From Verrucomicrobiales bacterium (lineage in GTDB: Bacteria; Verrucomicrobiota; Verrucomicrobiia; Verrucomicrobiales; DEV007): a stretch of 62,592 nt of DNA. This document shows, in pieces, positions 25,069 to 57,551 of this stretch. Every line of letters starts with the position of its first letter. The stretch's first letter is position 1. Position numbers and translations under genes: made by a program. The notes under the pieces were generated by a model. That model made no database searches. It saw nothing but the letters and a program-made list of their open reading frames with translations, and was not told the origin of the DNA. Location of the stretch: positions 1-62,592 of the forward strand of contig JARGOP010000015.1 of assembly GCA_029233965.1 (NCBI GenBank), read 5' to 3'.

Positions 25069-26514
25069 TTACTTTACATCGAGTGTCTCGGTCCCGGCGC
25101 CTTCGGCGGGCTCGATCCCGAGAAGTTTGCACACCGTGGCATGAAACGTGAGCTGGCTGATTTCATCGAGCTCGCCGCTGAGCGGGGAGTTCGGGTAACC
25201 GGCCATGATGACCTGACCTGACATCCGGATCGATTCTTCGACGGGGTAGCCGTAGGCTCCAAAGAATCCCGGCCCTTCTGAAGGATCGAAGACCGGCTCT
25301 TCCGCTTTCTCCTCCGCGAAGGCGTAACCCGTTTTGAGGACGAGGACCCGGTCCCCGGTGCGCTCGTGGAGATAATTCCACTCTTCCGGGAGCTCTTCCT
25401 TTTTCAGGGTCCGGAAATAGATGCGCTTGCTCAGTTCGCCATCGAATTTGTCCACGAAGATTTTCTGCTCACCTTCGGATTCGGGAAGATCCTTGAAGTA
25501 GAGGTTGGCGACGGCATCGTGAGCAACAATGTCGGCGTTGGCCATCATCTCATCTCCGAGGAGGTGGGCGATGTTCACATTCTTATCAAGCTCCGCCATG
25601 CCGTGATCCGTCGAGATGAAGATCACAAGATTCGCGGCCGGCGGCGCGAGCTTGTCCCACTCCGACTGAACGGTGTCGAAAAACGATTTCAAAGCGATGT
25701 CGGTTTTGCCGACCGCGGCATAGGTTTCATCGGCACGCGGCCCGTTCACGAGCCCGGCTTTGTAGATGTCATTGAGCCGGAGCATGACGAGGCGGAGGCG
25801 GTCGCCCCCGTCGGCGGCGGGTTCAGCGCCCTCGGGAACCGAGGCGCGCCAGGCTTCGAGTGCTTTGTTGAGGCGAGCCTCGTCGGTGGCTTCCTCGTCG
25901 TAGGCATCGAGGAAAAGGGAAGCGGGATGATCGCCGGTCTGGTTCTGAGACAGCGGCCAGTCGTGGACCAGCGTCTTGATGCCCTGACGGGTCGCGGTGG
26001 ACCAGATCGGCTCGGCCTGGAGAAACTCTGCATCTTTCGGATTCTTGACCACTTCGCCCGGGGCCAGTCGCAACTGGTCGGCGACGATACCGTGTTTTGA
26101 AGCGGTCACTCCGGTCGCCATGGTCGCATGAGCGGGGTAGGTGAGGCAGGGAAAGCTGGGCCGCATCTTGTTGGTGCCGCTTCCATCGCTGATGAGCTGA
26201 TCGAAGAATGGCGTCTCCGATTTTTCAATGTAATCGCCGCGGAAACCGGGAATACTGATCCAGACCACGACCGGCGGTCCATCTCCCGAACTGGTCTGCT
26301 TCGGAGCCGGCGTATCGGTTGGTTGATCAGTGGTCATCCGCTCATTGGCAGCTTCCATTTGCTTGCGCTGAAAGTCTGCGATGACGGCCTGGGTAGAGCG
26401 GTCCCCATCCATCGCAACCCGCTTGAATTCGAGTTCCTTGCTGCCGCTCCAGAGGAGCATGACAACGAAGGCAAAAAGGATCACCGCGACGAAAGTTACT
26501 AGCGAACGGAACAT
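25069..26514 (-). CDS. Phosphodiesterase/nucleotide-pyrophosphatase-like protein lacking metal ligands
   Basis: This 481-residue protein has an N-terminal membrane anchor (about 5-23) and a type I phosphodiesterase (ENPP) domain. The fold is recognisable from MRPSFPCLTYPAHATMATG (nucleophile-position Thr125) and STDHGMAELD (Asp303, His304). By eye, however, the Asp of the first metal motif is Pro89 (SIPGFR rather than S-x-D-G-F-R). The His in the usual D..GH..GP motif is Leu255 (NDIYKAGLVNGP), and the late His of GxHGY is Tyr421 (GAYGYP). One zinc site should therefore be largely lost. It may be a binding pseudoenzyme or use a different metal arrangement. Confidence 0.84.
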   Translation of the reverse strand: MFRSLVTFVAVILFAFVVMLLWSGSKELEFKRVAMDGDRSTQAVIADFQRKQMEAANERMTTDQPTDTPAPKQTSSGDGPPVVVWISIPGFRGDYIEKSETPFFDQLISDGSGTNKMRPSFPCLTYPAHATMATGVTASKHGIVADQLRLAPGEVVKNPKDAEFLQAEPIWSTATRQGIKTLVHDWPLSQNQTGDHPASLFLDAYDEEATDEARLNKALEAWRASVPEGAEPAADGGDRLRLVMLRLNDIYKAGLVNGPRADETYAAVGKTDIALKSFFDTVQSEWDKLAPPAANLVIFISTDHGMAELDKNVNIAHLLGDEMMANADIVAHDAVANLYFKDLPESEGEQKIFVDKFDGELSKRIYFRTLKKEELPEEWNYLHERTGDRVLVLKTGYAFAEEKAEEPVFDPSEGPGFFGAYGYPVEESIRMSGQVIMAGYPNSPLSGELDEISQLTFHATVCKLLGIEPAEGAGTETLDVK

Positions 26515-26568: not shown

Positions 26569-27798
26569 TCAAGCACGCAGCCGTGCGGCAAAAGCCCCGT
26601 CGTGGCCGTCCCGCCAGGGGAGAGAGTTCACGGTCCCCTCCACGGTGAGGCCGGAGCGCTCGATGACCCGCTCGTTTTCCTCCTGATCGATGGAGCAGGT
26701 GCTGTAGATAATGCGTCCGCCCGGTTTGAGAAAACGGGTCACACTGTCGAGTAGTTTTTCCTGCAGTTCGGCCTGTCGTTCGAAGTCACCTTCCTGAAGC
26801 CTCCATCTTACATCCACCCGCCGGCGGATCACGCCGGAGTTGGAACAGGGGACGTCGAGGAGAATGGCATCAAACGGCTCCAGTTCAGAAGGCTCCGGTT
26901 TTTCATCGGTCCAGTCGATCTTCCGCAGGGTTGCGGAACCGGCCCCGAGACGCTCGAGGTTGCCGCGGGTGCGTTCGAGACGTTTTTCCGAGCTGTCGGC
27001 CACAGTGATCGATCCGGGATCGCCGGAGAGCGCGGCAAGATAGGCGGCTTTTCCACCCGGAGCGCCACAGGCGTCGAGGATGCGTTCGCCGGGCTTTGGA
27101 TCGAGAAGGCGGCAGGCCAGCGAGGTGCTGGGGTCCTGAACGTAGACGAGACCCGCATCGAGCCACTCGTGATTTGGCGCTCCTTCGAAGAGAAAGAAAT
27201 CGGGGTAGTCAGGGCCGACCAAAGAGGGCTCAGTCGCGGACCTGACCCTGTTGAGTGCCTCTTTGTCTGCGGCGAGAGTGTTGATGCGGGCGTAGTTGGA
27301 CGGAGGCTGGTTGTTCCACTCGCAGAGGGCGGTGGCTGCTTCTTTGCCATACTGCATCTCCCAGCGCTCGATGAGGAAGCCCGGGTGGGAGAATCGATCT
27401 TCGAGCGGCCAGGTCGGAATCGCGGCCTCGAATTCATCCCGCCGACGGAGGGCATTCCGGAGGATGGCGTTGACGAGGCCCCGTTCGTGCTTTCGGGCGA
27501 GATTTACGGTTTCGTTGACGGCCGCATGATCGGCGATTCCGGAGAGAAAGATCTGGAAGAGACCGATGCGGAGGAGGTTTTGGGTCTCCGATTTGATCTT
27601 TCCGCGTCGGAGCTGATCGATGATTTCGTCGATGAGAAAAAGGTTTCGGATCGTTCCGTAGAGGATCTCAACGGCGAGGGCCCGATCGGGTCCCGTGAGC
27701 TTGTAGTGCGAGGCGAGGTCGGCGAGAATATCCCCGGCATACGAGGAGGTGTTATCCCATTCAGTGAGGGCTTCGAGCGCGACGCGGCGTGAGGACAT
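26569..27798 (-). CDS. rsmB: 16S rRNA m5C967 methyltransferase
   Basis: This 409-residue RsmB/Sun protein has an N-terminal NusB-like domain (from MSSRRVALEAL) and a C-terminal SAM-dependent domain. SAM binding is seen in ILDACGAPGGKAAYLAAL. The catalytic cysteine motifs are DVPCSNSG and YSTCSIDQEENE. The frame extends 45 codons upstream without family similarity, so the ATG at 27798 is chosen. Codons around 27239-27254 contain a 16-nt word shared with the deoB tail. Housekeeping enzyme placed between a propeller gene and the phosphodiesterase-like gene. Confidence 0.93.
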   Translation of the reverse strand: MSSRRVALEALTEWDNTSSYAGDILADLASHYKLTGPDRALAVEILYGTIRNLFLIDEIIDQLRRGKIKSETQNLLRIGLFQIFLSGIADHAAVNETVNLARKHERGLVNAILRNALRRRDEFEAAIPTWPLEDRFSHPGFLIERWEMQYGKEAATALCEWNNQPPSNYARINTLAADKEALNRVRSATEPSLVGPDYPDFFLFEGAPNHEWLDAGLVYVQDPSTSLACRLLDPKPGERILDACGAPGGKAAYLAALSGDPGSITVADSSEKRLERTRGNLERLGAGSATLRKIDWTDEKPEPSELEPFDAILLDVPCSNSGVIRRRVDVRWRLQEGDFERQAELQEKLLDSVTRFLKPGGRIIYSTCSIDQEENERVIERSGLTVEGTVNSLPWRDGHDGAFAARLRA

Positions 27799-27841
27799 AA
27801 TGGAAGGGGGGGGCGAAAGACGCCCGTCTTTCGTTGCGGCT

Positions 27842-28813
27842 CTACGGGTGACTCGCCAGCTTGGCGCGGAGTGCTTTGGCGCGGTCCCCGTCGATGACGA
27901 GGGTGTTGGCGAGTGAGTTTCCGAAGGTGTCAAAGTCGTGGAAGGTCCAGACGACTTCTTTGTCGCGGGTGATCTCGATGATTTGCGGATTGTCAGGGCC
28001 GGCGTGGCAGTTTCCGATCATGAGATTTCCGTTCTCCCGTTCCTCAATCGTCGTGACCCAGGCGAGGGTGATGCCTTCGAGGTCATTCTGCTCCAGTTTC
28101 CAGACAATTTCTTTCTCCGGTGTCACTTCGAGAACGCTGTGTCCGTTCCCGGTCGTGATGAGATAATTGCCGTTCTCTGCCTTGATCGCCGAAAAACACT
28201 TTCCGCCAAACGCGTCGGGGCCATGGCCCTTTTTGGGTTCTTTGCCGAAGAGGGGAACCGGGAATTCCCAGATCGCTTTCCCGTCGGCATTATATTCCTT
28301 CACGGTTTGATCGGCTTCGTGCGCGACGAGATAGTGACCGTTTTCGAGGCGGTGGACCTGCCGGGTGTCGGAGTGGGCGCTGGGTGAAGACACCGCGAGC
28401 GGGAATTCCTTCACAATCGTTCCGTCCGCTTTGACCTCGAGGATCCGGCTCGACCCGGATTCAGCGATCATGGTGGTTCCGTCAGGAAATCGTTGGGCGG
28501 CGTGAATCTCGACTTTACTGAGTCCGTCGTCCCGGTTTTGAGTGATCGCGTCGTAAGACCAGACCGTGTTCTTCCCGAGATCGAATTCGACGACGAGCGG
28601 CCACCCGTCCTGTGTCAGGATCGTGTCGTCCGGAAGAAGATGCAGGATATGAACCTGCTTGATAGGGTGATGCCAGAGGACCTTGTTCTTGTCAGCAGGG
28701 TCAACGATTGCGACGCCTTTTCCGGCTTCCGCACCGATGATGAGCCTTTCCGGAGGAGCGGCCTGAAGGGGGGAGGTGAAAAGCAGCGGGAGGACAAAGA
28801 GAAAACGAATCAT
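27842..28813 (-). CDS. Secreted beta-propeller protein
   Basis: This 323-residue protein has a signal peptide (about 1-18). Repeated blade motifs end in Trp-rich strands such as KNKVLWHHPIKQ, KNTVWSYDAITQN, GKAIWEFPVPLF, KEIVWKLEQND and KEVVWTFHDFD, giving about six or seven blades. This PQQ/NHL-like propeller probably binds ligands or proteins in the periplasm. Its start overlaps the batE stop by 4 bases, so it is the last member of the first Bat operon. No catalytic residues are evident. Confidence 0.8.
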   Translation of the reverse strand: MIRFLFVLPLLFTSPLQAAPPERLIIGAEAGKGVAIVDPADKNKVLWHHPIKQVHILHLLPDDTILTQDGWPLVVEFDLGKNTVWSYDAITQNRDDGLSKVEIHAAQRFPDGTTMIAESGSSRILEVKADGTIVKEFPLAVSSPSAHSDTRQVHRLENGHYLVAHEADQTVKEYNADGKAIWEFPVPLFGKEPKKGHGPDAFGGKCFSAIKAENGNYLITTGNGHSVLEVTPEKEIVWKLEQNDLEGITLAWVTTIEERENGNLMIGNCHAGPDNPQIIEITRDKEVVWTFHDFDTFGNSLANTLVIDGDRAKALRAKLASHP

Positions 28814-29592
28814 GATTGGGGGGTGGGTACCGGCCAGACGGGTTCAATTTGTTCGGCACGGACCCAGCCCCGGAGTTGCCCCGGAATGTCAACGTAGCGC
28901 CACTGGCCTGATGCCTGGATGATGCGAACTTCGGAACCCGGTGGCAAGTCGATAACGGTCTTTGAGGCCGGGGCCGGAGCGGTAAGGGCTTTCGCCCCGG
29001 AGGCGATCACGGTGGCAAAGTTTTCCGGTGCAAGCTGTGTCTTCTCGTAGTGGTTCATTCTCAAGGCGACGTAGCCAAACATCCCGAGGATCACTCCGAG
29101 GACGACCATTCCGGAACGGTTTGGACGAAGCGAGGGGAGGGAGAATGCTGCGGCCACCGCGATCGCACCGGCCCAAAGCAGGATAGAACCAAGCCAGCGC
29201 CCTGTGCCTGAAGGGAGTGAACGCAGAAATCCGGCGAGGCCCGATTCGCCAAACTCAAGGAAGCCGATTTTGGTTTTCAAAAATTCGATATTCTGCGGGA
29301 TCTCCGGGGCCCTCGGTTCGATGATCTGTGCGCGACGAAACCACAGCATCGCCTCTCCCGGTTTCTCGAGCCGATACCGGGTTGTCCCCAGATTGAAAAA
29401 AAGATCGGCGGAAATGAGACCGTTATCGACGAGGCTTTGATACTTGAGCGCGGCCTGTTCGAGTTCGCCGCTCTCGAAGTCAGCATTGGCCGAAGTGAAG
29501 ACCTCGAGAGACTCCTGAGAAGATCCGGGAGTCAGAATGAGGGCGATCCCGATGACAATCAGCGGGAGCATGATGAACGTACGAGAGGTCAC
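28810..29592 (-). CDS. batE: BatE-like TPR/SH3 membrane protein
   Basis: This 260-residue protein has a signal peptide or anchor. A TPR unit (about 32-105: NADFESGELEQAALKYQSLV, then FFNLGTTRYRL) follows, with two transmembrane helices (about 133-150 and 160-178). A C-terminal SH3-like domain follows (LPPGSEVRIIQASGQWRYVD, GWVRAEQIEPV). This order matches BatE of the Bacteroides aerotolerance cluster, which is thought to work with BatA-D at the inner membrane. It overlaps batD and the following propeller by 4 bases each. Confidence 0.86.
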   Translation of the reverse strand: MTSRTFIMLPLIVIGIALILTPGSSQESLEVFTSANADFESGELEQAALKYQSLVDNGLISADLFFNLGTTRYRLEKPGEAMLWFRRAQIIEPRAPEIPQNIEFLKTKIGFLEFGESGLAGFLRSLPSGTGRWLGSILLWAGAIAVAAAFSLPSLRPNRSGMVVLGVILGMFGYVALRMNHYEKTQLAPENFATVIASGAKALTAPAPASKTVIDLPPGSEVRIIQASGQWRYVDIPGQLRGWVRAEQIEPVWPVPTPQS

Positions 29593-31325
29593 TTTTTGGC
29601 AAGCTTTTGAAGGGTGGGAACGATTTCGGCAACGTCGCGATCCGTGACCGGTCCGTCACTTTGGTTGGCTCCGCTGTAAAGAACAGTATCGCAGCGGTCG
29701 GTGATGCGATCAGCAATATCGAGCACAGGCGCAGGTGCGTCGGGATATTCATCCCGCCACAACATCAGGGATGTCGAAACGGCGTGGTAGAATTCTCGCT
29801 TCGGTGCTCCGGCTTTCGGAATGCGTTTGAGAGATTGCCGGAAGCTCAGGACGGGAAGGTGACCTTCGCGGTCGAATTCCCGCTGCTTCACCCGGCGAAT
29901 CACACCAAAGCCGAGAACGGTGAAGAAACCGATCGAGAAAACCGCCTGCACGAGATAGAATAGGGTCGAGTCGGATTTCAATGAAGCGGCGGAAATCCAG
30001 CGGGGCTGCGTTTTCCTGATGTGAAGGATGTCGTCGAACTGCGGGTTCGGGCGCGAGGCTTCGGGCACCCGGGTCAGTTCGCCGGAATCGGTGGGAAAAC
30101 GGATCGTGGCCGGAGCGCTGCTTCGCTCATCTGAACTCACCGTGATCGGAATTTCAGGGGTCTCCAGCGAGACGTACTTTTCCTGATCCGGGTCAAAGTA
30201 GGTGAGTTCGAAAGGAGGAATGGATTTCACTTTGGCCTCCGGAATGATGACTTGTGAGAACACAGTGCGACCGGCGGAGCTGCCGGAGTTCTCGCTCGCG
30301 GTCGCTTCGAAGGTTTTCGACGGCTCATAGCTTTTCCACAGACCGGTGGGAGGCACTTTGAAAACCGGAGCCCCGAGGGTTTCAAAATTGCCCGACCCGT
30401 CGACGACAAACTCCATTGAAATAGGATCGCCGATGCTGACCTCAGCCGTCGAGGCGGTCGCGGTCAGTTCGAAGATTCCGACACCGCCGTTGAAGCTGAC
30501 CGGAGCGCCGGGGGGCAGCGGCTTTACCGTGACGTTCACGGTATTGGTCGCCATTTCCCGCACTACGGTCCGGGAGAAGAATCCGCCGAATCCGAAGCTG
30601 GCACCCTGATTGTCTTTTACCCGGACGCCAAGGGTCGCGGGTCCGATGCGATGCTCTCCGGCTTTCAGCGCAAAGAGGTTTGAAGGCAGCGACGCCGATG
30701 TGTAGTAGGTATTCCCCAGATCCGCGCCGTCAGTCTGCACATCGCGGAAGGCTTTGATGATGAAACTTTCGTGCTCGAGCTGAGGCGGGAGAACATCCTG
30801 AATCGAGTTTCGTCCCTGCACATACAAACTCAACGTGAGCGGCACGATTTCATTCACGTAAAAAGTGTTCTTTGAAAGCTCAAACTTACCAAAGTAGGGC
30901 TTCGTCGCGTCGATGGTTTCATTCTGGTCCCTTTCGTAGATGGTGATTTCAAGCGGGTTCGTCGAATAGGTTTGAGTTCCGAGGACGACATTGAGCGACG
31001 GAATCGTGAAAGTCCCCGGGGTTTCCCCGCGAAAGCGGTAGAAGTGGGTCACCTCTATGGTTTGGGTTTGGTTGATGATCGAAATTTTCGAATTCTGACC
31101 GGAGTGGGAAATGTCGAGTCCCGGAACGCCAATCGTCTCAGGCACGGAGGCATCAACGCCGGTGACTTTGAGGATGAGCGTTCCCACTTCACCGATCGCG
31201 ACGCGACTGGACAGTGCATTCATAGAAACCCCGAAACCATCCGGGGGCTGTTGTCCCGATGAGGGCAATGCCGCGAGCGCGACAAAAAGGCCGATCAAAA
31301 AGGCTGCAGTGGAAAAGCGAGGCAT
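29589..31325 (-). CDS. batD: BatD-like protein
   Basis: This 578-residue BatD-family protein has a signal peptide (about 1-25) and a large periplasmic region of beta domains (for example EVGTLILKVTGVDASVPETI and PGTFTIPSLNVVLGTQTYS). A transmembrane helix follows near residues 450-475 and then a short cytoplasmic tail. Bat proteins are linked to oxygen tolerance and envelope stress; the mechanism is unclear. It follows the BatB-BatC fusion by 9 bases and overlaps batE by 4. It is longer than the second BatD copy at 60118. Confidence 0.87.
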   Translation of the reverse strand: MPRFSTAAFLIGLFVALAALPSSGQQPPDGFGVSMNALSSRVAIGEVGTLILKVTGVDASVPETIGVPGLDISHSGQNSKISIINQTQTIEVTHFYRFRGETPGTFTIPSLNVVLGTQTYSTNPLEITIYERDQNETIDATKPYFGKFELSKNTFYVNEIVPLTLSLYVQGRNSIQDVLPPQLEHESFIIKAFRDVQTDGADLGNTYYTSASLPSNLFALKAGEHRIGPATLGVRVKDNQGASFGFGGFFSRTVVREMATNTVNVTVKPLPPGAPVSFNGGVGIFELTATASTAEVSIGDPISMEFVVDGSGNFETLGAPVFKVPPTGLWKSYEPSKTFEATASENSGSSAGRTVFSQVIIPEAKVKSIPPFELTYFDPDQEKYVSLETPEIPITVSSDERSSAPATIRFPTDSGELTRVPEASRPNPQFDDILHIRKTQPRWISAASLKSDSTLFYLVQAVFSIGFFTVLGFGVIRRVKQREFDREGHLPVLSFRQSLKRIPKAGAPKREFYHAVSTSLMLWRDEYPDAPAPVLDIADRITDRCDTVLYSGANQSDGPVTDRDVAEIVPTLQKLAKK

Positions 31326-31334
31326 GGAGCGTGG

Positions 31335-33458
31335 TTACCAGTTCTTGTAGTTCTCTCCGCGCGAGGGGGCAAGGACAGGACGAACTTCGGTTTCGTCGGC
31401 GAGAGCTTCGAGAAGCTGTCTCGCTTCACTGGGAGCGTAGCCGGTCTCCGGATTCGTTTTCATTTCCTGCGGATTCATCTGGCGGGGGTCCTGAGGCTGG
31501 GACTGATTCGGGTTCGCCTCCAACTCCCCGTCACCCGGGGCTTCAGGCTGTTCCGGCTCCTGTCCTGCAGGCTGTTGAGGTTCTGAGGGTTCTCCGTCTT
31601 CGCCTTCCTTCTCTGAGGGATCTTCGGGCTTTTCCCCGTTTTCGCCATCGGATTCGGAGTCCGATTCATTTTCCTGAGGATCCTGCTCCGACTCGTTCTC
31701 CTGCTCGTCACCCTTGCCGTCTTCGTCCTGCGGTTCTTCGCCGGATTCCTCCTCCCCCGGATCTTCGTCCCCCTTCTCCTGCTCGTCGTTGTCTTCTTTC
31801 TCTTCTTCGTCCTTCTTGTCTTCCTGATCCTTTTTTTCCTCTTCCTCCTGTTCCTGCTGCTCCTGTTCCTGTTTTTCCTGTTCTTTCTTCAGCTCCTCAA
31901 TTCTCTTTGTGACGACTTCGATGTTGTGAGTCGTTTTCGGATTTTCAGGATTGAGTGAGAGAGCCGATTCGTAGTGCTCCAGTGCGCTTTCCCACTGGGC
32001 GAGGACTTCCCCGACCTGCGCGGGTGGTCCCTCGAGGTTTTGCAATTGATCCGGATTTGCCGACTGACCGAGTGCCTTCAACGCGGCTTCGCCCTGACGA
32101 AAGAGTGTGTTGCCGAGGTTGTAGTGAGCGTGTTCACGAAACGCATCTTTGGGTTCGATGAGAGCCCGGCCATACGCTTCGGCAGCGCGCTCGTAATCGC
32201 CTTTTCGAAAAGCGGCCGCTCCTATTGCGAGATTGAGACGGGAGACATCATCACTCGAGGGGCGATCAGCGAGGGCACCCTCGTAGGCCTGAATTGCTTC
32301 GTCGAACTCACGACGTTCGAAGGCTTCGTGTCCGGCGAAAAGTGCGTCCTCCCCGGAGGCTTGCGAAAAAAGGAGGAGGGCGGGAGCAAAGATCCAGGCG
32401 GAGTTTGAACTCAGTGTTCTGAGGCCGGTGGGGCGGGGGGCTCTGCTCCAGAGCGCGGGAGTGAGGTGAGCGAGGATGAGACATATCACCGCAAAACTCA
32501 GTGGCCACATGAATCGTTCGATGGGGCGGAGCTGCGAATCGCTTTGCTCGCGGGAGCTTGCGATTCCGTTCTGGATCTGCTGCACGACACGGCTGAGTGA
32601 GGTGGCGCCGTCGAGGTGAACGTAGAGTCCGCCACCGGAGGCGACCCGCTGAAGCACTTCAGGATCGAGACGGCTGCGAACGACCTGCCCGGCTTCGTCC
32701 TTGATGAAAACCCCGGGGACCGGGTTGCCGCGATCATCCAGTTCCGGAATGATCGCCCCATCGTTGGTACCGACTCCGACCGAGATAATAGTGAGAGACG
32801 CTTCGCGGGCCTTTTCTTTAACATCCTCCACTTCTTTGCTGCCCTCGAGTGCTTCCCCGTCGGAGAAAATAACGAGAGCGCTCTGATCGACTTCAGCTTC
32901 TTCGATTGTCTCCAGAGCAAGATCGATCGCCGCGGCAATATTGGTTCCCCCGCGGGGAATAATTTCCGTATCGAGCTGGACGATGGCTTCGCGGATCGCT
33001 TCGTGATCCACGGTGAGCGGGGCTTGCAGAAAGGGGCGTCCCGCAAAAGCGATGAGACCGATACGATCTTCGGGAAGTGAATTGACGATGTCCGTCGCCG
33101 CAAGCTTCGCACGCGAAAGGCGTGAGGGGCGGAGATCATTCGCAAGCATGCTCCGCGAGGTGTCGATCGCGAGAAAGAGATTTCGGGCCTGAATCTCGGA
33201 CGCGACTTCATCAAACCCGAGTTGCGGCCGGGCCAGGGCGGTGAAGGTTGCGGCAAGAGCGAGGCATTGCAGGGTGAAAACGGCCCAGCGTTGAACCTGG
33301 CTTCCACTGCTGACGAGTTGTCTTTGCAGCCTCGGGGAGACCAGTCCGGGGAGCTTGCGGCGTCGCGACGAAGCGGCCCTGATTCGCAGGGCGAGCAGCG
33401 GGATGAGGACGAGCAAACCCCAAAACCAAAGCGGGCTGTGAAAGGTTAGATTGCTCAT
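31335..33458 (-). CDS. BatB-BatC fusion: VWA domain, TPR and acidic tail
   Basis: This 707-residue protein fuses two normally separate Bat subunits. The N-terminal half is BatB: two N-terminal membrane helices and a von Willebrand A domain with intact MIDAS (DTSRSM at about 95-100, GGTN, then FSDGE), and a helix near 330. The second half is BatC: TPR units (about 365-515). An extraordinarily acidic Glu/Asp/Gln stretch (521-650) then precedes the usual BatC end, GYAPSEARQLLEALAD. It overlaps batA by 4 bases. The acidic region is low complexity and probably disordered. Confidence 0.88.
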   Translation of the reverse strand: MSNLTFHSPLWFWGLLVLIPLLALRIRAASSRRRKLPGLVSPRLQRQLVSSGSQVQRWAVFTLQCLALAATFTALARPQLGFDEVASEIQARNLFLAIDTSRSMLANDLRPSRLSRAKLAATDIVNSLPEDRIGLIAFAGRPFLQAPLTVDHEAIREAIVQLDTEIIPRGGTNIAAAIDLALETIEEAEVDQSALVIFSDGEALEGSKEVEDVKEKAREASLTIISVGVGTNDGAIIPELDDRGNPVPGVFIKDEAGQVVRSRLDPEVLQRVASGGGLYVHLDGATSLSRVVQQIQNGIASSREQSDSQLRPIERFMWPLSFAVICLILAHLTPALWSRAPRPTGLRTLSSNSAWIFAPALLLFSQASGEDALFAGHEAFERREFDEAIQAYEGALADRPSSDDVSRLNLAIGAAAFRKGDYERAAEAYGRALIEPKDAFREHAHYNLGNTLFRQGEAALKALGQSANPDQLQNLEGPPAQVGEVLAQWESALEHYESALSLNPENPKTTHNIEVVTKRIEELKKEQEKQEQEQQEQEEEEKKDQEDKKDEEEKEDNDEQEKGDEDPGEEESGEEPQDEDGKGDEQENESEQDPQENESDSESDGENGEKPEDPSEKEGEDGEPSEPQQPAGQEPEQPEAPGDGELEANPNQSQPQDPRQMNPQEMKTNPETGYAPSEARQLLEALADETEVRPVLAPSRGENYKNW
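31481..31898 (-). repeat. Acidic low-complexity coding region of BatB-BatC
   Basis: About 140 codons of almost unbroken Glu, Asp, Gln, Lys, Ser and Pro encode residues about 521-660 of the fusion. On the plus strand this appears as CTTC/TCCTCC-rich tracts. It is translated in frame, so it is a disordered linker rather than noncoding repeat. Confidence 0.8.
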
Positions 33459-34465
33459 GGGTATCTACGCCAGAAGGTCTCGTCTCCAACCAGGGTTATC
33501 AATCCGAAAAAGACACCGGCCATCGCGAACCAGTGGAAAAATTCATCGGCTTCAACGCGGGTCGTGCGGAGGACCTCCGTTTTCTCCATTTCGTCGATCA
33601 ATTCGAAAATGCGCTCCAGCCCGGAAGTGTCCTGGGCGCGGAAGTATTCCCCGTCCGCAATCGCCGCGATTTCCTGAAGCGTCTTTTCATCAAATTCCTG
33701 ACGAAGCCGCTGCGGTCCCACCGGCGTCTGCACGACATAGTCTCCATAGGTGCCGACCGCGATGGTGTAGACCTTGATGCCCAGCGTTTTCGCGAGTTTG
33801 GCCGCCTCGACCGGAGCGAGCTTGCCGGCATTGTTGACCCCGTCCGTGAGGAGGACGATCACCTTACTTTTCGAGGGGCGCTTGTCGAGCCGCTTTGCAG
33901 CAGCGGCAATGGCGGATCCGATTGCGGTGCCGTCTTCAACAAGACCGATCCGGACCCGGCCCAGTCCCTGCTCCCCTTCCAGCCACGATTTTGACAGTGT
34001 CAGGGGGCTGGCAAGGTAGGGTCGGCCGGCGAAGGCGAGAATTCCGATTCGGTCATTGTCGCGCCTTTTGATGAAATCGCGGGTGACCTTTTTTGCCGCC
34101 TGGAGCCGGTTCGCGCGGTTGCCTTCGATCCTGAAGTCTTCGACCTGCATGGAACGGGAGACATCAATCGCGAGGATCAGTTCAACACCGCTTTCAGAGA
34201 CCTGCTCTGATCGATTGATCCATTGCGGGCGTGAGAGAGCGAGGATCAGGCAGGTCAGGGCGAGAAAAAGGCTCGCCAGGCGAAACCCTCCGCTTCGTCC
34301 TTTCGCAACGGGTCCGAGGCGTTTGAAAATGTGCAGGGAGGAAAAGGTAACGGCGTGCTGATTTCCGGAACGGCTCCGGAGGAGCGCGAGAAGCGGAATG
34401 AGGGCCAACAACCCGAGCACCCACGGGTGGGCAAGTGAGAAGGTGGTTTCAGCGGGAAGATTCAT
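33455..34465 (-). CDS. batA: BatA-like VWA membrane protein
   Basis: This 336-residue BatA protein has two N-terminal membrane helices and a VWA domain with intact MIDAS residues (AIDVSRSM near 95-102, DGTAIG, and LTDGVNNAG). A C-terminal transmembrane helix (about 310-330) follows. VWA/MIDAS domains bind metal and protein partners. It leads the first Bat operon, 81 bases after fabH, but no moxR or DUF58 gene precedes it. The stop overlaps the next start (ATGA). Confidence 0.9.
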   Translation of the reverse strand: MNLPAETTFSLAHPWVLGLLALIPLLALLRSRSGNQHAVTFSSLHIFKRLGPVAKGRSGGFRLASLFLALTCLILALSRPQWINRSEQVSESGVELILAIDVSRSMQVEDFRIEGNRANRLQAAKKVTRDFIKRRDNDRIGILAFAGRPYLASPLTLSKSWLEGEQGLGRVRIGLVEDGTAIGSAIAAAAKRLDKRPSKSKVIVLLTDGVNNAGKLAPVEAAKLAKTLGIKVYTIAVGTYGDYVVQTPVGPQRLRQEFDEKTLQEIAAIADGEYFRAQDTSGLERIFELIDEMEKTEVLRTTRVEADEFFHWFAMAGVFFGLITLVGDETFWRRYP

Positions 34466-55384: not shown

Positions 55385-55857
55385 GCGACCCTTCCACCAG
55401 TCTCGAACGGCTTCATGATCTCGTGCCTCCTCCCGGGATCAGTTGGTGGCCGTTGGCTCCGGGATGGTATTTCGTTGCCGTCTGCATTCTGTTCTTTATC
55501 GGAGTGACCGCCTTTCGTGGCTGGAAAAGATGGAAGGCGAATGCCTACCGTCGCGCGGCCCTCCGGGAGTTGGAGAGCGCCTCCGACATCACTGCCGTTG
55601 CTGAGATTCTCCGCCGCACCGCGCTCATGACCGCACCGCGCGCGAGTATTGCGGCCAAATCAGGCAATGCCTGGGTCGACTGGTTGGCTTCGGTCATTCC
55701 GGACCCGATGCCGGATGAGGTGCGCCATCAACTCACCTGCGGAATCTATGATCGCAGCGAAGGGGATTTGATGCTTGTCAGTCAATACGCGGACCGGTGG
55801 ATCCGCAATCATCAATCGGAACCCAACCTTCTCAATTCGATCAATACCTCTTCATGA
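55381..55857 (+). CDS. DUF4381-type membrane protein
   Basis: This 158-residue protein starts with a short N-terminal segment (LVPPPGISWWPLAPGW). One transmembrane helix follows (about 30-45), then a cytoplasmic helical part (KRWKANAYRRAALRELESAS then AEILRRTAL). This is the DUF4381 pattern found in MoxR/Bat operons. It overlaps DUF58 and the phosphatase by 4 bases each. Confidence 0.88.
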   Translation: MSDPSTSLERLHDLVPPPGISWWPLAPGWYFVAVCILFFIGVTAFRGWKRWKANAYRRAALRELESASDITAVAEILRRTALMTAPRASIAAKSGNAWVDWLASVIPDPMPDEVRHQLTCGIYDRSEGDLMLVSQYADRWIRNHQSEPNLLNSINTSS

Positions 55858-57551
55858 AAACAACTCTGAGACTTACCTTTTTCCTGGGCTGCTTTGGCAT
55901 AGCGGCGGCTGCGATTTCTGCTGATGAAGCCAAACCGAAGCTCATCCTGCAGATCACGGTTGATCAACTTCGCGGAGATATGCCGACCCGTTTCCTTGAT
56001 CGGATGCCTGAGGGTGGGTTTCGTTGGCTCCTTGAGAACGGGGTGGTTTATAAGAATGCCCATCATGCTCACGCAAATACTGAAACGATTGTCGGACACG
56101 CGACGCTCGCGACGGGTGCGCATCCCTCGGTGCACGGGATGATCGGGAATACCTGGTTTGATCGTCAGACGGGTGAGTTGACCTACAATATCGAAGATCC
56201 GAGATACAGCATCCTCACCCGTGGCGCCGGGGTCGATCAGGCGCAGGAAATTGATCCGACACAGCGGGTCGCAAAAAGTGACGGGCGCTCTCCCGCCGCC
56301 ATTCTCTGTTCCACTTTCAGCGATGAACTTGCGATCCAAACCGCGGGAGCTGCGAAGATCTTCGGTGTCTCAGTGAAGGATCGGGGCGCCGTTTCCATGG
56401 CCGGTCACGCCGGGAAGGCTTTCTGGTTTTCGAAGAGTGTCGGCGAGTTTGTTTCCAGTAACTTCTACTACGAGAAATACCCTGAGTGGGTTGAGAAGTG
56501 GAACGGCGAAGGCTATCCGAAACGCTACGGAGGCACCGCGTGGGAGTTGCTGCACGATCAATCCACCTATCTTTTCAGGGATCGCGATGATCAGGAGTGG
56601 GAGACGACGATGCTTCCGTTTGGAAGGGTCTTTCCTCATTCGTACGGATCCGCCGAAGGAAAAGGGTTTACGACCTTCCTCACCTTGAGCCCTGCCGGTG
56701 ACGAACTGGTTCTCGACTTTGCTAAAGCGGTTGTGGAAAACGAGGACATCGGAGGAGACGAAGTCACGGATTACCTCTCGGTGAGCTTTTCAGCGACGGA
56801 CTATGTGGGGCATCTTTTCGGCCCTTCGAGCCTTGAGGCAGAAGACAACCTTCTTCGGCTGGACCGCACTCTCGCGGCTTTGCTTTCCTTCATCGATGAG
56901 AAAGTGGGACTGGATAACACCGTCATCGTCCTGGCGGCAGACCATGGTGGTCCGGAGGTGCCTGCTGATCTGAATCTACACGGATTCGAGGCGAACTACG
57001 TCCATCCCGAAAAATGGGAGAAGGAAGAAGGCTTTGCAAAATTGAAAGAACGATTCGGTATCGGTGAGGATATCATTCGTGAGTATGCCCATCCTTATCT
57101 GTATCTCAATCGCGAGCTTATCGCTGAGAAAGGCCTCGACGTTGCGGAGGTGGAGGAAGCGATCGCGGAGGAGTTGGTGAAGTTTGAAGGAGTCGCTCTT
57201 GCGATTTCAAGCACGGCGCTTTCGAGAGGGGAAGTGTCCGGAACTGATGTCGTCCAATCGATCCTTAACAATCATCATCCGAAACGCTCCGGCGACATCT
57301 ATGTGGTCTTCGAGCCTCACTGGTTTATCAACGATTTTGATGGCCTTTCCGTTGCCGCCACTCACGGCTCTCCCTGGCGTTACGACACCTTTGTCCCTGT
57401 CATTTTTGCCGGCTTCGGAACCCAGCCTGCGAAGATTTATCGTGAGATCAAGACCACCGCAGTGGCGCCCACGCTTTCCGCTCTCATGGGAACGAAATCG
57501 CCGTCGGGGAGCTTCGGCGAAGTTCTTATTGAAGTCATGAATCGTCCCTGA
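55854..57551 (+). CDS. Secreted alkaline phosphatase
   Basis: This 565-residue exported enzyme has a signal peptide (1-23) and a PafA-like alkaline-phosphatase domain. Metal and catalytic positions look intact by eye: ITVDQLRGD, then NTETIVGHATLATGAHPSVHG with the Thr nucleophile, SATDYVGHLFGP, AADHGG and VAATHGSPW. It would release phosphate from monoesters in the periplasm. Its start overlaps the DUF4381 stop and the VWA gene starts 13 bases after it, so it is embedded in the Bat operon. That placement is unusual. Confidence 0.9.
   Translation: MKTTLRLTFFLGCFGIAAAAISADEAKPKLILQITVDQLRGDMPTRFLDRMPEGGFRWLLENGVVYKNAHHAHANTETIVGHATLATGAHPSVHGMIGNTWFDRQTGELTYNIEDPRYSILTRGAGVDQAQEIDPTQRVAKSDGRSPAAILCSTFSDELAIQTAGAAKIFGVSVKDRGAVSMAGHAGKAFWFSKSVGEFVSSNFYYEKYPEWVEKWNGEGYPKRYGGTAWELLHDQSTYLFRDRDDQEWETTMLPFGRVFPHSYGSAEGKGFTTFLTLSPAGDELVLDFAKAVVENEDIGGDEVTDYLSVSFSATDYVGHLFGPSSLEAEDNLLRLDRTLAALLSFIDEKVGLDNTVIVLAADHGGPEVPADLNLHGFEANYVHPEKWEKEEGFAKLKERFGIGEDIIREYAHPYLYLNRELIAEKGLDVAEVEEAIAEELVKFEGVALAISSTALSRGEVSGTDVVQSILNNHHPKRSGDIYVVFEPHWFINDFDGLSVAATHGSPWRYDTFVPVIFAGFGTQPAKIYREIKTTAVAPTLSALMGTKSPSGSFGEVLIEVMNRP

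Follow-up and report, generated by a model that had tools for sequence, protein, structure and literature searches.

A probable pseudo-phosphodiesterase of the NPP fold conserved in a clade of Verrucomicrobiales

The locus and its gene neighbourhood

The window analysed here is a stretch of 62,592 nucleotides from a Verrucomicrobiales bacterium (contig JARGOP010000015.1 of assembly GCA_029233965.1), and the gene under study occupies positions 25069-26514 on its minus strand, stop codon included. The coordinates, strand and intact frame given in an earlier note on this DNA held up: the ORF runs uninterrupted from ATG to stop, encodes a protein of 481 amino acids and belongs to a family of orthologues. 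The sole Pfam match of the protein is PF01663 (type I phosphodiesterase/nucleotide pyrophosphatase), at 166 bits against a cut-off of 23 (E 2.4e-48), and the same model was matched, at 124 to 178 bits, by all six further members that were scanned of the 42-member clade described below. No NCBIfam model reached its cut-off with the 481-aa protein; the best of them, that of the alkaline phosphatase PafA (NF042991), gave 21.6 bits against a cut-off of 650, and an identity as PafA was rejected on this ground. The closest solved structures by sequence are those of the Xanthomonas NPP (7mw8, 2gsn and 7n1s; E 6e-21 to 1e-19).

Residues ~5-22 (26449-26502, minus strand) form an N-terminal hydrophobic segment with a Kyte-Doolittle 19-residue maximum of 2.75. 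A similar segment was present in all 18 clade members examined (of 42), and in the clade proteins it is followed by a loosely kept Gly-Asp stretch. In line with the earlier description of the protein as membrane-anchored, this segment suggests, as far as sequence can tell, that the protein is probably held in the membrane and faces the periplasm.

Directly upstream, across a gap of 54 bases, lies an rsmB-like gene (26569-27933, minus strand; TIGR00563, 282.9 bits, cut-off 269.05), which we regard as a neighbour only. Within the short flanks covered, an rsmB match adjoins the gene in 17 of the 28 remaining loci of the genus and in none of the 13 loci from other genera. Among those 13, a GlcF/GlcD pair recurs beside the gene in one (L111) and PSD1-type matches stand beside it in three (L107, L109 and L117). 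None of these was accepted as a conserved partner gene. Near rsmB, the interval 28810-34465 (minus strand) of the window holds a BatD-domain gene and genes for two BatA-domain VWA proteins, one of them with TPR repeats; a frame without a Pfam match within this interval was taken for BatE.

Predicted fold, metal ligands and substrate pocket

An AlphaFold2 model of the domain (residues 78-481, 14 rows) had a mean pLDDT of 70.2 and a pTM of 0.73, with residues ~309-430 unreliable and the cap region poorly modelled; an earlier AlphaFold2 model, built on the full-length sequences of 11 orthologues, was of low quality (mean pLDDT 53.2, pTM 0.52). Against chain A of 7n1s, the domain model gave a Z of 30.4 and an rmsd of 2.6 with 276 residues aligned in VIA-align, and a TM of 0.62 in Foldseek, where the rmsd of 8.3 is over the whole model. 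The best 50 rows from Foldseek and the best 50 from VIA-align were all NPP-type chains, those from VIA-align with Z values of ~25-30. Structure prediction, which the earlier note had put forward as a check, points in this way to an NPP fold. The protein shares this predicted fold, PF01663, the threonine and the Asp-His motif with Xanthomonas axonopodis NPP (XacNPP; 2gsn, 7n1s, 7mw8) and with vertebrate ENPP1 to ENPP7, and GFR, TG-x-HGI and TDHG stretches are common to all of them. Unlike XacNPP and ENPP1 to ENPP7, the window protein has four of the seven zinc ligands and the counterparts of Asn111 and Tyr205 replaced, and it carries new near-invariant Arg/Lys residues.

We take the zinc ligands of XacNPP to be D54, T90, D210, H214, D257, H258 and H363, and these numbers match the sequence offset of 2gsn in both the phmmer and the profile alignment. 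Two of them, T90 and H214, are named in excerpts of PMC9173814. In the phmmer alignment the seven ligands fall, in the same order, on P89, T125, Y251, L255, D303, H304 and Y421 of the 481-aa protein, and a profile alignment to the XacNPP chains gave the same columns, the C-terminal piece with H363 being weak when taken alone. MAFFT alignment with intact relatives, which like the column assignment as a whole is sequence-based and motif-anchored, likewise put P89, L255 and Y421 in ligand columns and T125, D303 and H304 in the columns of T90, D257 and H258. Where the dinuclear zinc site reads D,T,D,H,D,H,H, the window protein reads P,T,Y,L,D,H,Y; as aligned, four of the seven ligands are replaced, namely the complete Zn1 set of three and one that belongs to Zn2. 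The earlier note had reported Pro89, Leu255 and Tyr421 as replacements, rightly but with one too few, and the Thr125, Asp303 and His304 that it listed as remaining do each occupy a ligand column. Its retained Asp249, however, was a misalignment: the D210 column holds Tyr251, and D249 lies opposite XacNPP H208 (by offset).

The ligand columns were tallied over 42 non-redundant clade rows, three of them fragments, and 36 other rows, the latter being the relatives that passed a profile E of 1e-10 (the own-genome proteins L073, which is degenerate, and L074, PafA-like and by eye intact, fall below it at E ~1e-7). The fragments (L016, L021 and L030) were left out of the trees and conservation tables and entered the tally where the column exists. 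Of identical sequences a single copy was counted (L032-L042 duplicate loci of L003-L030, L065 is L031, and L131 is L063), a second NPP frame of L136 (DTDHDH, last column missing) was kept out of the tally, and of the G010 gene the second piece, on contig C104, was left aside. Among the 36 other rows, 33 show the full DTDHDHH, two are without only the last column, and one covers only the first two columns; in the alignment with homologues that had also been proposed as a check, the 36 nearest non-clade relatives therefore keep every ligand covered.

Within the clade, all codons given here and below being on the minus strand, Pro89 (26248-26250) replaces ligand Asp54, with Asp in 0 of 40 clade rows and 36 of 36 others; Tyr251 (25762-25764) replaces Asp210, with Asp in 0 of 42 and 35 of 35; and Leu255 (25750-25752) replaces His214, with His in 2 of 42 and 35 of 35. 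Tyr421 (25252-25254) replaces His363, the clade having Tyr in 17, Phe in 19, Trp in 2, Gly in 3 and His in none of 41 rows, and the others having His in 33 of 33. Asp303-His304 (25603-25608), in the columns of Asp257-His258, is retained (Asp in 40 and His in 41 of 41 clade rows), as is Thr125 (26140-26142), in the column of the nucleophile and ligand Thr90, which is Thr in 34 of 40 clade rows, Asp in 2, Glu in 1 and His in 3. The window protein thus has the threonine nucleophile, and the six clade rows with Asp, Glu or His in its place are L108, L115, L020, L107, L109 and L117; in L020, D303 is changed to P along with T125 to D.

The losses extend beyond the metal ligands. With 24 intact NPP relatives as the reference, 53 positions are conserved, and at these the clade has lost four of the seven ligands and 5 of the 46 others (N146, D150, Y246, G333 and P429; Fisher p 0.012), and with a stricter 95% cut 4 of 32 non-ligand positions are lost (Fisher p 0.022). 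Two of the five correspond to N111 and Y205 of XacNPP, presumably substrate-pocket residues, Y205 for base stacking. Asp146 (26077-26079) stands in place of Asn111 (Asp in 35 and Asn in 4 of 39 clade rows, Asn in 24 of 24 intact NPP relatives), and Arg246 (25777-25779) in place of Tyr205, by offset (Arg in 32, Lys in 3 and Ser in 4 of 39, Tyr in 24 of 24). The phosphoryl-contact Asn (N111 of XacNPP by offset, N259 of ENPP1) is D146 in the window protein. In mouse ENPP1, according to excerpts of PMC9173814, N259 hydrogen-bonds a non-bridging phosphoryl oxygen, and its mutation inhibited activity. The earlier suggestion that the protein binds phosphodiesters consequently finds no support where binding in the NPP manner is concerned, with Asn changed to Asp in 35 and Tyr to Arg or Lys likewise in 35 of 39 clade rows.

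D146 and R/K246 co-occur in 34 of 39 clade rows. A D146-R246 salt bridge filling the old pocket is only a suggestion from this co-occurrence, the independent changes within the clade being few (two at 146 and five at 246, R-K swaps included). New in the clade are also Arg260 (25735-25737) and Arg430 (25225-25227). Arg260 is near-invariant, being present in 38 of 39 clade rows and in none of 35 others, and 19 of the 24 intact NPP relatives have Asp, Asn or Glu there; Arg430 is invariant, being present in 39 of 39 clade rows and in none of 33 others, and 19 of the 24 have Glu, Asp or Ser there. R389 and K394 are new and near-invariant as well, in a region where the alignment is less sure. Acidic residues were gained too (D195, D358, E401 and E406), and the net charge of the domain is -19, against -12 in intact relatives. 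A basic anion pocket was considered and set aside, being weakened by these near-invariant acidic gains and by a domain that is more acidic overall.

Distribution, descent and selection

Relatives of the protein, some of them weak, were found by protein search in 37 of 56 related genomes, and of the 386 genomes sampled from the order, 47 gave matches in a profile search at E 1e-20. Ligand-lost proteins account for 42 of the 47 matching genomes, all within the window's own bacterial family and spread over seven genera, and the remaining five (G027, G037, G050, G079 and G152) keep every ligand. Within the genus, 29 of 33 genomes have the gene, and the four without it are 53-79% complete. A sample of 387 genomes from the phylum contained 18 with a match at E 1e-25, namely the window's own and 17 more; no other ligand-lost match was found in this sample at that threshold, the proteins of the 17 genomes keeping the ligands covered.

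In the tree of 54 rows, the ligand-lost proteins make up one side of a branch with support 100/99. With positions 146 and 246 removed together with the seven ligand columns (62 rows, quick method, L129 and L140 left out), the clade branch had an SH-aLRT of 99. Long-branch warnings were raised on both trees, above all for L031 and L141, and the sister group is unsure. We infer a single ligand loss in the ancestor of the clade.

The best-scoring relatives outside the clade are L121-L128, L138 and L139, from other Verrucomicrobiota families, and L031, from a same-genus bin. All of these are similar to the window protein across most of the domain and differ from it in having seven of seven ligands present. 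By eye, L121, L122 and L125 start with a signal-peptide or lipoprotein-like segment. L031 (also L065; contig C428 of G027) is an NPP relative with intact ligands and 35% identity, and the ligand-lost protein was not found in the same-genus bin from which it comes. It has an odd composition and a long branch, and perhaps reflects transfer or a binning error. Four scans of viral contigs yielded a single intact NPP locus, the NPP-like gene L141; three of them gave the same contig, which is 71.6 kb long and listed as viral (IMGVR_UViG_3300037462_000758), and the fourth gave no locus.

Pairwise dN/dS was ~0.03-0.10 in the five of six orthologue pairs that gave a value, with dS near saturation. On the tree, the replaced positions 251, 255 and 421 changed 12, 9 and 12 times, respectively, with 421 mostly aromatic; D303 changed once and H304 never.

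Possible functions of the clade proteins

By descent and predicted fold the 481-aa protein is an NPP, but as aligned it does not have the dinuclear zinc site by which an NPP enzyme is recognised. It combines lost catalytic residues with clear homology, and, like its orthologues in 42 genomes of seven genera, it has been conserved by selection over speciation (dN/dS ~0.03-0.10), both of which are marks of a pseudoenzyme. In the mutants described in excerpts of PMC9173814, mouse ENPP1 was inactive when one of its six Asp/His zinc residues was replaced by alanine, except in H362A, and XacNPP H214A, which is without Zn1, nevertheless degraded ATP faster than the wild type, so that an NPP may stay active when only Zn1 is lost. 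The clade is without D54, D210 and H363, ligands of the essential kind, and H214 is also missing in all but two rows; because ligands of the essential kind are absent, we infer that canonical phosphodiester hydrolysis by the clade proteins is very unlikely. The earlier note had raised the possibility of a pseudoenzyme, and a two-zinc site that appears dismantled across a conserved clade, in a fold in which ENPP1 ligand mutants are mostly inactive, argues for it.

We think it likely that these proteins are lineage-specific pseudo-phosphodiesterases, membrane-anchored and of the NPP fold, that are selected for a non-hydrolytic role. The two-zinc, threonine-nucleophile active site of the ancestor would have been dismantled once in the clade, and the remodelled pocket and the anchor would serve the binding or scaffolding of an envelope partner. 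The anchor, the new near-invariant residues and the low dN/dS point to a non-hydrolytic role at the membrane that has been kept. Other observations fit this reading less well. Almost the whole clade keeps Thr125, Asp303 and His304, which a pure scaffold would need only if they are structural; residues ~309-430 of the model are unreliable, and a compensating ligand may exist; the loci compared between genera showed no conserved partner gene; and ligand loss in PF01663 is not unique to the clade, L073 of the same genome being degenerate too.

The persistence of these three residues is what would be expected of a protein in which position 125 (T, D, E or H), D303 and H304 hold a single metal, for structure, ligand binding or another, weaker chemistry, a reading akin to the single-metal mechanism of the earlier note that we nonetheless consider unlikely. 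Besides the conservation of D303 (40/41) and H304 (41/41), the best evidence for such a residual site, recognised post hoc, is that the four changes inferred at T125 were each to D, E or H. With a probability of 0.125 for a change of T to one of these three (BLOSUM62 with background frequencies), four of four would have a chance of ~2e-4, again judged after the fact. In L020, with P at 303 and D at 125, it is as if the Asp had moved, and XacNPP H214A was crystallised with one zinc (excerpts of PMC9173814). Against a single metal, D54, which would complete that site as its fourth ligand, is missing from 40 of the 40 rows that cover the position, the Thr at 125 in most rows leaves two strong ligands, and the Asp and His could have been retained for packing. 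It is possible, though still on the improbable side, that the protein works in the periplasm as a sensor, carrier or enzyme whose ligand or chemistry is new; here Zn1 would have been erased, an Asp/Arg pair would have taken the place of Asn111 and Tyr205, new arginines would have been gained, and the kept Asp-His would perhaps hold one metal with a ligand relocated to position 125.

A new catalytic site free of metal, made up of the gained Arg/Lys residues and Asp146, strikes us as quite improbable. It would account for the near-invariance of R260, R389, K394 and R430 and for the pairing of D146 with R/K246 in 34 of 39 rows, but no catalytic motif was recognised by eye, the domain is more acidic than that of intact relatives (net -19 against -12), with acidic gains among its new residues, and D146-R246 may be a mere salt bridge in the old pocket. 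The wrong assignment of Asp249 might lead one to suppose that the protein is an ordinary active NPP whose ligands had been mis-aligned by eye. The same columns emerged, however, when the alignment was anchored on motifs and took in the 36 other rows, of which 33 have seven ligands, and position 249 is Asp in 27, Gly in 12 and Ser in 3 of 42 clade rows; being Gly or Ser in 15 of 42, it is not a family-wide ligand, and we hold an ordinary NPP to be exceedingly improbable. Loss of active-site residues would also be seen in a decaying pseudogene, but with no internal stop in any match listed, a dN/dS of ~0.03-0.10 and a gene that is missing only from four genus genomes of 53-79% completeness, decay is hardly credible.

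If the clade proteins are indeed pseudo-phosphodiesterases, they would constitute a lineage-wide pseudoenzyme family, previously uncharacterised, in the NPP branch of the alkaline phosphatase superfamily. The natural series within the clade (position 125 occupied by T, D, E or H, and His still present at 255 in two members), together with the intact outgroups, would make the order in which a two-metal site is lost open to testing, and likewise what selection keeps once an active site is gone. Annotation by PF01663 alone would call these proteins phosphodiesterases. No NPP-family pseudoenzyme in bacteria was found among the matches listed in the open-licence PMC literature. A partial parallel is the metazoan pseudophosphatase PHLPP2, which we take to belong to a phosphatase family unrelated to NPP. 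As described in excerpts of PMC12002173, PHLPP2 is alike in its lineage-wide loss of activity in a metal-dependent phosphatase and unlike in being eukaryotic and biochemically tested.

In the window's own genome, the protein search gave a single further match, that to the degenerate L073, at a weak E of 0.007; PF01663 has 87 matches in this genome, and the ligands were read in three of them. Intact distant paralogues are present in five same-genus genomes (L066, L067, L070, L071 and L078), and the 481-aa protein may regulate an active sibling enzyme. L073 (L144:6960-8378, plus strand; contig C135 of the own genome, also L043) is a second PF01663 protein with degenerate ligands and scores best for PF01663 in that genome (215 bits). 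By alignment, its first Asp is changed to Val, His214 to Gln and Asp257-His258 to Glu-Tyr, a pattern unlike that of the clade, and the frames beside it match methyltransferase, aldolase II and Exo_endo_phos domains. The window itself also encodes a PafA-like alkaline phosphatase (55797-57551, plus strand), which reached 454 bits with NF042991, below the cut-off of 650. It belongs to the same superfamily and matches the same Pfam model as the 481-aa protein but differs from it in keeping, by eye, all seven ligand columns and in belonging to another subfamily, and it serves as an intact control within the window.
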